64,000 bases of DNA from Gammaproteobacteria bacterium (GTDB lineage: Bacteria > Pseudomonadota > Gammaproteobacteria > Pseudomonadales > Azotimanducaceae), in the NCBI GenBank assembly GCA_030425195.1, contig JAUIAV010000004.1, positions 62,001-126,000 of the forward strand. The letters run 5' to 3'. Of this stretch, positions 14,183 through 17,092 are shown piece after piece (position 1 is the first letter of the stretch; each line of letters starts with the position of its first letter). A program made the position numbers and the translations under genes. The notes below the pieces were generated by a model. The model ran no database searches, was not told the DNA's origin, and was given only the letters and a program-made list of their open reading frames with translations.

Positions 14183-15655
14183 TCAGAAGCCCTGCTTCAC
14201 CACATCGTTCGGAATGAGCGGGTAGGAAATGCCGGCCACCTTCTGGACCACCCGGACCACCTGACAGGCGTATCCGAACTCGTTGTCGTACCACACGTAG
14301 AGGACCACCTGCTTGTCCTTGACGATGGTGGCACCGCCATCGACGATGCAGGCGTGTCGATTGCCGACGAAATCGCTGGAAACCACCTCCGGCGACGTGG
14401 TGAAGTCGATCTGCCGCTGCATGTTCGAATGCATGGACACGTGGCGCAGATAATCGTTGATCTCCTCCACATTCGTATCCCGGCCCAGGGTGAGGTTCAG
14501 AATGGCCAGGGAGACGTCCGGTGTGGGCACCCGGATGGCATTACCCGTGAGCTTGCCGTCCAGCTCGGGAAGGAGCTTGACGACCGCAGAGGATGCGCCC
14601 GTCTCGGTGATCACCATGTTCAGCGGCGCACCACGGCCACGACGGTTCTTCTTGTGATAGTTGTCCAGCAGGTTCTGGTCCGGCGTGTAGGCGTGGACCG
14701 TTTCCATGTGGCCGGAAACGATCTCGTACTCGTCGTTCATCGCCTTCAGCACCGGCACGATGGCATTGGTGGTGCAGGAGGCCGCTGCCAGGATCGAATC
14801 GTCCGGCAGGACATCGCTGGAGTTGATGCCGGACACGATGTTCTTGATCGAGCCTTTGCCGGGCGCGGTCAGGATGACCTTCTTCGCCCCCTTGCTCTTC
14901 AGGTGCTGCCCGAGGCCCTCCTCGTCCCGCCAGGCACCCGTGTTGTCGATGACGATGGCATCGTCGATACCGTAGGCGGTGTAATCCACCTCGGCCGGGG
15001 AACCGGCATAGATCACCCGGATGACGTTGCCGTTGGCGATGATGCAGGAGTTCTCCTCGTCGATGCGGATGGTGCCCTGAAAGCTGCCGTGAACCGAATC
15101 GCGGCGCAACAGAGAAGCCCGCTTGACCAGGTCGTCGTCTTTTCCGGCCCGGACCACGATGGCCCGGAGTCGCAGCTGGGAGCCGCTGCCGGTCTTCTCG
15201 ACGAGCAGGCGGGCCAGCAGACGGCCGATCCGGCCGAAGCCGTAAAGCACCACGTCCTGCGGCTTCTCGAGCGGCGGCACGTGCCGGCCGATGACCTCGG
15301 CGCATTCCCGCTCGCAGAATTCCAGCGGCGTGATGTCGCCGGATTCGGACTCTTCCATGAATCTGGCGGCAAGCTTGCCCACGTCCAGGTGCGACGGTCC
15401 GAGATCGAGCTGGGACAGCGCTTCGAGGATCGGGTAGCTCTCGAACTCGGAGAGCTCGTTGCCCGGCTCGAGCTGCCTGACGTAGCGGTGAGTCTTCATG
15501 ATCTGGATGACGCTCTGGTTGTACAGGGCGCGTCCATAGCAGTAGGTCACCACGTTACGCCGGTACAGACGGCCGATGATCGGGATCATCGCCTCTGCCA
15601 GGGCTTCACGTTCTTTCCAGTCGGGGAAATAGTCGTCGAGACTCGGTAGGGCCAC
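14183..15655 (-). CDS. gap: Glyceraldehyde-3-phosphate dehydrogenase, long form
   Basis: A 490-residue GAPDH of the long type found in pseudomonads, with about 130 extra N-terminal residues before the NAD fold. GFGRIG (140-145) is the Rossmann turn and ASCTTN places the catalytic Cys at 294. The enzyme oxidises glyceraldehyde 3-phosphate to 1,3-bisphosphoglycerate, or the reverse in gluconeogenesis. The GTG start at 15655 is preceded by AGGA. It lies between nqr and mfd regions as in P. aeruginosa (from memory), where a long GAPDH also sits next to nqrA. Confidence 0.93.
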   Translation of the reverse strand: MALPSLDDYFPDWKEREALAEAMIPIIGRLYRRNVVTYCYGRALYNQSVIQIMKTHRYVRQLEPGNELSEFESYPILEALSQLDLGPSHLDVGKLAARFMEESESGDITPLEFCERECAEVIGRHVPPLEKPQDVVLYGFGRIGRLLARLLVEKTGSGSQLRLRAIVVRAGKDDDLVKRASLLRRDSVHGSFQGTIRIDEENSCIIANGNVIRVIYAGSPAEVDYTAYGIDDAIVIDNTGAWRDEEGLGQHLKSKGAKKVILTAPGKGSIKNIVSGINSSDVLPDDSILAAASCTTNAIVPVLKAMNDEYEIVSGHMETVHAYTPDQNLLDNYHKKNRRGRGAPLNMVITETGASSAVVKLLPELDGKLTGNAIRVPTPDVSLAILNLTLGRDTNVEEINDYLRHVSMHSNMQRQIDFTTSPEVVSSDFVGNRHACIVDGGATIVKDKQVVLYVWYDNEFGYACQVVRVVQKVAGISYPLIPNDVVKQGF

Positions 15656-15684
15656 AGCCAGTCCTCATGGATTTGAGGGCGCGT

Positions 15685-15713
15685 ATTATCGGAATTTGCC
15701 TTGTGCGGGGCAA
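15685..15713 (-). promoter_or_regulatory. Sigma70-type promoter of gap
   Basis: TTGCCC (15713-15708) and GATAAT (15690-15685) on the minus strand are 17 bases apart, 30 bases ahead of the gap start. Both hexamers are near consensus. It lies between gap and the 170-bp palindromic element. Confidence 0.6.
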
Positions 15714-15833
15714 CATCCAGGGTGCAACGAGTTGCATTTCGATGTAAGTCCCCGCCATCCGCTCACAGGGACTCGAATTCAGGGGCCGTTTCGCCGAAGT
15801 GACACCCGGCTGGTGCGATTTCACAATCTTGCC

Positions 15834-16003
15834 GCAGAGCGGGAAAACACAAAGGTGTTTTCATTCACTCCCGCTCGGGCGCTCCGCGCTTCCCTCAGTT
15901 GCCGATGTTGCCTGCCCGGTGGCTTCGCCACCAGACAGTCAAATCGGCGCCTTCGGCCTCGCTCTCACGTTACTGAAAACACCTTTGTGTTTTCCCGCTC
16001 TGC
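15834..16003. repeat. 170-bp palindromic element with perfect 30-bp inverted ends (MITE/REPIN-like)
   Basis: Bases 15834-15863 are the exact reverse complement of 15974-16003 (outer end GCAGAGCGGGAAAACAC). Each arm is itself a hairpin: GAAAACAC, a 4-base loop, GTGTTTTC. The 110-base interior holds another perfect stem, GGTGGC-TTC-GCCACC (15918-15932). No open frame of note lies inside. The element occupies most of the 381-base gap between the 2-oxoacid oxidoreductase beta gene and gap; the rest of that gap holds only the gap promoter. Two inverted hairpins around a spacer recall REPIN elements, but the family cannot be named from sequence alone, and no RAYT transposase is in the window. Confidence 0.8.
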
Positions 16004-16036
16004 TACGTGATACAGCGATCCTGCAGCCGGGCACCT

Positions 16037-17092
16037 CTAGCGGAACGACTCGTTGATGCCCTGGAGGGCGTCGTTGCCGGGACAGAGCTCCGCCACGTCG
16101 AGCTCGTTCAGCGGGCGCTGCACCGTGTCCAGGATCTCGTGACAGTCGGAGGCATTCGGGTCCACGTAGAGGAGCCCGGTCAGCACCTCACCCCGGGAAT
16201 GGTGTGTCTGCACGTAGTTCAGGGCGCGGACCCGGTCGTGTACGTCGAATCCGTCATCGAGTTTGTGCAGACGGAGCATGGATCCGTCGGGCATCCGAAC
16301 CTCCTCGGAGGTGCCGGGATCGTAGTCCACGGTGATCTCGTCCTGAGGCAGGAAGAAGTCCGAGGCCATGACCGCCTCGCTGTGTCCGCGCACGTAGTCG
16401 TAGCTCTTGGTGGAGCCGTTGTGATTGTTGAAGGCGACGCAGGGGGAGATGACGTCGATGAAGGCGAAACCCTTGTGCATGAGACCGGCTTTGATCAGCG
16501 GCACCAGCTGCCGCTTGTCGCCGGAGAAGCTGCGCGCCACGAAGCTGGCACCGAGCTGCAGTGCCAGAGAGACCACATCGATGGGCTCATAGAGATTGGG
16601 CTGACCTTTCTTGCTGGTGGAGCCCTTGTCGTTGGTGGCCGAGAACTGACCCTTGGTGAGCCCGTAGGTGCCGTTGTTGTCCACCACGTAGAGCATGTTG
16701 ATGCGCCGGCGCACGATGTGCGCGAACTGGCCGAGTCCGATGGACGCGGTGTCTCCGTCCCCGGAAATGCCGATGCAGTAGAGTTCCCGGTTCGCCAGGT
16801 TGGCTCCGGTGGCCACGGACGGCATGCGGCCGTGCACGGAGTTGAAGCCGTGGGACTTGGAGAGAAAGTAGCTGGGCGTTTTGGACGAGCAGCCGATGCC
16901 GGAGATCTTGGCGAACTTGTGCGGCGGCAGCGACAGCTCAGCGCAGGCCTGGACGATGGCGGCACTCACGGAGTCATGGCCGCAGCCGGCGCAAAGGGTG
17001 GAGACCGGGCCCTCGTAGTCCCGGCGGGTCAGCCCCAGGTCGTTGACCGGCAGCTTCGGATGATGAACGCGGGGTTTGGCAACGAAGGTCAT
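16037..17092 (-). CDS. 2-oxoacid:ferredoxin oxidoreductase, beta subunit
   Basis: A 351-residue thiamine-diphosphate subunit of a KorB/PorB-type enzyme that oxidatively decarboxylates a 2-oxoacid, probably 2-oxoglutarate, to the acyl-CoA and passes electrons to ferredoxin. CAGCGHDSV near residue 34 and the GDGD...NNGTYGLTKGQFS block form the ThDP/Mg2+ site. The start overlaps the alpha-subunit stop by 4 bases (17089-17092). With the two upstream genes it forms a three-gene operon. Substrate choice is inferred from family resemblance only. Confidence 0.9.
   Translation of the reverse strand: MTFVAKPRVHHPKLPVNDLGLTRRDYEGPVSTLCAGCGHDSVSAAIVQACAELSLPPHKFAKISGIGCSSKTPSYFLSKSHGFNSVHGRMPSVATGANLANRELYCIGISGDGDTASIGLGQFAHIVRRRINMLYVVDNNGTYGLTKGQFSATNDKGSTSKKGQPNLYEPIDVVSLALQLGASFVARSFSGDKRQLVPLIKAGLMHKGFAFIDVISPCVAFNNHNGSTKSYDYVRGHSEAVMASDFFLPQDEITVDYDPGTSEEVRMPDGSMLRLHKLDDGFDVHDRVRALNYVQTHHSRGEVLTGLLYVDPNASDCHEILDTVQRPLNELDVAELCPGNDALQGINESFR

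Follow-up and report, generated by a model that had tools for sequence, protein, structure and literature searches.

Interspersed palindromes of bacteria are as a rule recognised by their conserved ends. In the parts of the published accounts drawn on here, REPINs and GTAG-REP dimers are short dispersed palindromes that form inverted doublets in extragenic DNA with a preference for gene 3′ ends (PMC3116915, PMC3733652). REPs lie in convergent and unidirectional intergenic regions and form head-to-head dimers, and compensatory changes occur in REPIN spacers (PMC3733652, PMC3116915); the REPIN ends are conserved and the spacer less so (PMC3116915). The same portions describe CGTC-tagged REPs as having no dedicated transposase, head-to-head dimers and convergent intergenic sites, and MITEs (ERIC, NEMIS, RUP) as non-coding, strongly folding sequences of 70–300 bp with inverted ends (PMC3733652). 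Template switching is able to create and repair stems, and the resulting (quasipalindrome) hairpins have perfect stems made or mended by copying one arm, according to the part of PMC8794818 used here.

The element described in this study belongs to a family of sequences of about 150 bp without evident coding content, and, the conserved ends apart, it is like each of these systems in the features just listed, with stems that may likewise be made or mended by copying one arm. However, its middle is conserved and its ends are variable, the reverse of the REPIN arrangement. The units of CGTC-tagged REPs are simple hairpins with stems of 8–9 bp, whereas here the core forms a three-way junction, and where some copies have a GACG-like stretch others read AGCGAAGCC or AGCGAGGCC. 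The ends of MITEs are sequences recognised by a transposase, whereas the arm of our starting copy is unique and arms differ widely between copies. Template-switch hairpins form the stems of assorted RNA genes; here each stem encloses a conserved core. Integron attC sites are sequence-variable palindromes in which one folded strand is recognised by its structure, a likeness the present family may share, and no attC boxes were noticed in the element by eye. Because the niche and the dimers are shared and the conservation pattern is reversed, we file the family among the bacterial interspersed palindromic repeats, and not with REPINs or MITEs. Extragenic copies reach 38 per genome and lie at gene 3′ ends, as in REP-like dispersed palindromes in the broad sense.

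A perfect palindrome between two genes

The window (the whole 64-kb stretch of DNA analysed) contains two 30-bp arms, at 15834–15863 and 15974–16003, that are perfect inverted complements, as the original prediction had stated. They sit inside a 35-nt inverted repeat of 94% identity. A search from 12-base seeds found no perfect inverted repeat longer than 30 bp, at a spacing of up to 200 bp, anywhere in the window, and the longest in 30 windows shuffled within 200-bp blocks was 16. The 8-bp stem predicted within each arm is also present (GAAAACAC-AAAG-GTGTTTTC); such a hairpin (stem of at least 7 bp) occurs in 1 of 78 copies of the family, and is peculiar to the window copy. Folded as RNA, the minus strand of the element reaches −104.2 kcal/mol (z = −10.9 against shuffles), and folded as DNA it gives z = −11.7.

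Read on the minus strand, which carries the conserved core, the 5′ arm (15974–16003) is followed by the core (15872–15963) and the 3′ arm (15834–15863). Motifs of the core are TTGAC...GGCAA, AGGG and a small hairpin whose loop is GGA. The flanking genes lie on the same strand. Upstream, at 16037–17092, is a gene with a TPP-enzyme C domain, read as the beta subunit of a 2-oxoacid oxidoreductase (putatively kor), and downstream, at 14183–15655, is a gene matching the glyceraldehyde-3-phosphate dehydrogenase (GAPDH) domains (gap). The element begins 33 bp beyond the 3′ end of the TPP-enzyme gene and ends 178 bp upstream of the GAPDH gene, and a mechanically called ORF of 104 aa runs across it. 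No direct target duplication was seen by eye around the window copy.

It had been suggested that the palindrome might act as a two-way transcription barrier. As an intrinsic U-tract terminator this was not borne out: there were no terminator-like sites in 15600–16100, in a scan that allows loops of 3–8 only, and across the family none of 77 copies had TTTT after the 3′ arm, while 2 of the 77 had AAAA before the 5′ arm.

A dispersed family in Pseudomonadales

Allowing up to 3 mismatches, the window arm was found in its own genome only as the two arms at its own locus. The stretch between the arms recurs in that genome on contig C43 at 89–90% identity, and as a degenerate pair on contig C18. The stretch common to the window and C43 copies spans 15854–15983 of the minus strand (89%); the outer arms beyond it differ and yet remain self-complementary. 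The conserved unit is the inner core, not the arms. BLAST searches gave matches in 3 of 4 genomes of the genus and 9 of 200 genomes of the family. Five of these nine are confirmed carriers, whilst the other four look like chance, having no match to the covariance model R1 described below; the corresponding 4 of 17 BLAST loci (L040–L043) were dropped as probable chance matches. Own inverted arms were present in 12 of the 13 copies inspected, L005 being without an inverted repeat. Twelve cores were aligned for the first model, with two aligned L027 sequences left out, and RNAalifold placed 24 pairs in them, 13 with double changes.

Covariance model R1 found copies in all four genus genomes and in at least 16 of 200 family genomes, the filters being strict and the candidates scored few in number. 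At E ≤1e-4 it matched 5 of 390 order genomes, namely our own and four genomes of three other families. The window core itself scored 95.3 bits with R1, which was built partly from the window copy. R1 retrieved 90 matches from 63 sources, and this set, which includes one partial match (the second copy of L139, E = 0.088), was used for the later statistics; the 90 copies share ancestry, and our counts treat non-independent copies as units. A second model, R2, was built from the 90 matches (window core E = 2.5e-15, the R2 alignment including the window copy). It found 38, 23 and 19 copies in three family genomes (G085, G017 and G069). The four genomes from other families had 15, 4, 13 and 11 copies and our own had 3, whereas 9 of 9 family genomes that had previously been negative had none. 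The earlier counts are therefore lower bounds.

A pattern scan of named genomes, using a pattern that fits 42 of the 90 copies, returned 49 stretches, mainly labelled uncultured Pseudomonadales or Gammaproteobacteria, and several of these are genomes used here. Among five differently labelled records (L153, L157, L158, L177 and L193), R1 matched only L193 (3048–3123, Rhodobiaceae UBA7804), where one copy with 31-bp arms lies in a genome labelled Alphaproteobacteria by name. As that genome holds a single copy, contamination or transfer is possible. The exact pattern, with the same coverage of 42 in 90 copies, had no match in viral_contigs, nor did one 75-bp core in plasmids and phages. Rfam 15 gave no match at E ≤1 for window positions 15400–16400, so the element is not assigned to a known Rfam family, and eight other loci returned only MIR7486, far under its cut-off. 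No description of the element was recognised in the open-licence PubMed Central literature. The suggestion of an unlisted repeat family therefore held, the window copy being one member of a dispersed set.

Copies lie at gene 3′ ends and often in pairs

Neighbouring genes were taken from our own codon-usage gene caller. In the 65 of 90 copies with both neighbours called, 40 lay between convergent genes, 24 between tandem genes and 1 between divergent genes (raw counts, with pair members counted separately); the other 25 were unclassifiable as a neighbouring gene was not called. Copies therefore sit at gene 3′ ends, most often convergent ones. Adjacent copies less than 700 bp apart were almost always divergent, with 24 of 25 in the −+ arrangement and 1 in +−.

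Several further features of individual loci were observed. In G085, a second, outer inverted repeat surrounds the element at L098 (about 1470–1760) and L099 (about 1475–1735), that of L098 reaching over the stop codon and final codons of the gene on the left; L094 and L103 have a comparable outer repeat. Some copies in G069 (L138–L144) lie in longer repeats beside IS-like sequence with TGTCCTGTTTC-type ends, and several contigs there start or stop at the element. In G019, L137 (1598–1688) looks like a chimera, as if a pair had lost its middle and its two copies had become joined. Lastly, a tandem array of the octamer AGCCAGGT lies between pair members in G085 (L102, about 1420–1510) and G017 (L107), and is longer in G085.

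The core folds as a three-way junction

On one strand the core folds as a three-way junction. Across the 90 copies, standard pairs filled 93.7% of cells, 22 of 24 core pairs had changes on both sides, and double-change cells numbered 397 against 117.8 in shuffles; all three figures are helped by an alignment that was itself fitted to the structure. The non-Watson-Crick pairs on the core strand were G-U in 57 cases and A-C in 21 (p = 6e-5), and this excess indicates the core strand as the folding strand. It fits RNA and single-stranded DNA alike.

The arms change in pairs

Complementary flanks (score ≥12) were found in 80 of 87 scorable copies, compared with 1.0% of 830 control pairs in which the two flanks came from different copies. 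The remaining 7 had no complementary arms, and 3 of the 90 copies were left unscored because a contig end was too close. In the 77 copies with a score of at least 14, the arms had a median length of 30 bp (IQR 28–33) and the whole element 149 bp (IQR 144–158). Arm composition shows a weak common trend, being A-rich 9–12 nt from the core and pyrimidine-rich beyond. In the arms, G-U exceeded A-C by 52 to 32 (p = 0.04) in one setting, the difference was not significant in two others, and a looser setting gave 127 to 153, the opposite sign.

Sixteen copy pairs at orthologous sites of two related species were compared and 13 were kept; one of the dropped pairs was armless on one side and two, with no more than half of their positions alike, had unrelated arms. 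Over the 406 duplex positions of the 13 pairs there were 72 both-side changes (64 of them paired in both copies) against 20.8 expected if the sides changed independently, and 40 one-side changes against 142. Since this count fixes pairing in both copies, it was repeated with the register taken from a single copy. One copy's register gave 66 both-side changes, 60 of them still paired, where 19.7 were expected; the other's gave 70, 64 of them still paired, where 22.3 were expected. Such correlated change is expected of hairpins maintained by template switching, and selection on pairing predicts an excess of the same sign.

Arms diverge faster than cores between loci

For pairs of non-orthologous copies with cores at least 80% alike, outer-arm identity had a median of 0.63. 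The control, 2511 pairs with cores less than 70% alike, gave 0.56 with a 95th percentile of 0.66. Of the 88 similar-core pairs, 58 fell in the control range and 30 exceeded its 95th percentile (about 4 expected); within genomes, 15 of 43 similar-core pairs exceeded the control range, as did 7 of 8 orthologous pairs. Thus, between loci the arms diverge much faster than the cores, though not always without trace, and the statement that the arms of unrelated copies are mutually random would be too strong given the 30 of 88. Arms are kept in a local duplication in G085 (L092) and in several copies of G069, some of which share arms and so form an exception to arm variability. Between the window and C43 copies the inner arm is the same throughout, but there is little likeness further out. 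Neighbouring copies in G068 have cores that are 97% alike, with outer-arm identities of 0.60 and 0.68 and inner-arm identities of 0.80 and 0.73.

At two orthologous sites, the core of one species is inverted relative to that of the other, and the arms differ. One of these is L115/L276, where the cores are 92% alike. These copies look like independent arrivals at one site.

Element sites turn over between related genomes

At the kor–gap site in relatives G001 and G003, both genes are kept and the 93 and 96 bp of unaligned sequence between them are element-free. With filters off, R1 gave at most 9.1 bits at the G001 site (L216) and nothing at E ≤5 at L223. The G001 site holds an ordinary hairpin with TTTT on the minus strand; a kor terminator reading of the window element was considered and set aside, this terminator-like hairpin being unrelated to the window arms. 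Both flanks were found at 10 of the 12 loci shown, none of which is among the R1 or R2 matches listed. More element-free sites were found for L089, L097, L098, L099, L106, L114, L115 and L123, where unfiltered R1 scored no higher than 14.6 bits (E = 0.22). Element sites therefore turn over between related genomes, through gain or loss. The original prediction held that an arm found once and conserved at this locus in all relatives would point to a fixed regulatory structure; the arm is indeed at a single locus, but the locus is not conserved. Its interpretation is supported in that the site varies between relatives and arm complementarity is maintained (the 72 both-side changes above), and does not extend to a classical MITE.

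Arms were also compared with the element-free sites (14 copies from 10 loci, 28 tests). For L097 and the first copy of L096, a single left arm outmatched every other arm tested, at p = 0.013; this is the lowest value the test can give and has to be read against 28 tests, and the two sites may be deletion remnants. Both arms matched the element-free site in 0 of 14 copies (lowest joint values 0.089 and 0.089), the intergenic sequence often being too diverged for a match to show.

In G048, a GTAG-type palindrome (GTAGGAGCGGCC / GTAGGAGCGGCCTCCCGGCCGCG) was seen at 5 of 7 orthologous sites examined (L217, L247, L279, L281 and L282). L250 and L280 were without it, and an eighth site, that for L099, is outside the count. 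PF01797 was not found in G048.

Known mobile palindromes fit the family poorly

The proposal of a MITE was not upheld. The terminal repeats are not conserved, most similar-core outer-arm pairs (58/88) falling within the control range, and because the window arm is unique to its locus and copies vary greatly in their arms, recognition of the arm sequence by an enzyme is unlikely. Assignment to REPINs or BIMEs was likewise rejected: the arms are variable, only 9 of the 90 copies carry GTAG at the 5′ edge of the core (22 of 90 have GTAG or CTAC at any place within the core plus 10 nt), and the suggested RAYT enzyme, sought as PF01797, is unlinked. Of 16 carrier genomes 6 had PF01797, as did 8 of 14 that gave no R1 match, several of these genomes being incomplete; it was not found in our own genome, which is rated 100% complete. 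A RAYT role is thus unlikely, and no mobilising enzyme was found.

Discussion

The family is probably a dispersed, structure-conserved, REP-like repeat, a "REPIN inside out". The folded core strand, as single-stranded DNA or RNA, would be the form that is recognised and copied. Complementarity of the arms may be kept by fold-back template switching during replication, by selection on the helix, or by both, and the arms are perhaps made on arrival. Copying or gene conversion, commonly ending inside the arms, would spread the cores or make them alike. The most likely role for the host, in our view, would be to protect or insulate messages, as a strong hairpin at the 3′ ends of mRNAs where convergent genes meet.

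Much of the evidence could also be read in terms of a structured non-coding RNA, or an mRNA 3′ structure, that does not move but is under selection, with gene conversion homogenising the cores and the arms drifting with compensation. Core covariation with a G-U excess on one strand, the retention of orthologous arms with compensation, the 3′-end location, the residual arm similarity between loci and the existence of neighbours with like cores and unlike outer arms (L128, 97%; L127, 88%) would all be expected. We consider this account possible though rather unlikely, as element sites are present in one genome and missing from a related one, genomes of a single family carry anything from 0 to 38 copies, and two orthologous sites hold opposite-orientation copies with different arms. 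More doubtful is a mobile core, recognised by structure, that gains new arms at each site, the flank being copied inverted over about 30 bp by core-primed fold-back template switching to leave an inverted target duplication; one third of similar-core copies retain some arm similarity, which argues against it.

The arms might instead be the target, if a mobile element inserted into the loops of existing perfect hairpins. The window and C43 copies, which share core and inner arm whilst their differing outer arms are still self-complementary, are consistent with this, as are the second outer inverted repeats around L098 and L099, and REP dimers within palindromes are described in the part of PMC3733652 used here. 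However, both arms matched an element-free site in 0 of 14 copies and one arm in 2 of 14 (again with intergenic sequence often too diverged), and the arms have no following U-tract, with the caveat that element-free sites L279 and L281 hold other palindromes; we judge insertion into hairpins to be improbable. A REPIN or BIME of a RAYT system would occupy the same niche (3′ ends, convergent genes) with divergent dimers and a hairpin, yet conservation inside and variability outside is the reverse of REPINs as the consulted part of PMC3116915 presents them. With GTAG at so few core 5′ edges and PF01797 unlinked, this is the least credible of the explanations, and very improbable.

With variable ends and a conserved folded middle, the family seems to reverse the usual recognition logic of interspersed palindromes. 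Some genomes carry dozens of copies, orthologous sites free of the element are available, and double substitutions are in clear excess, which makes the family well suited to testing whether template switching makes and repairs long perfect stems, an open question in hairpin evolution. For its hosts, the element is a candidate 3′-end structure between convergent genes, the place taken in G048 by GTAG-type palindromes at 5 of 7 orthologous sites.
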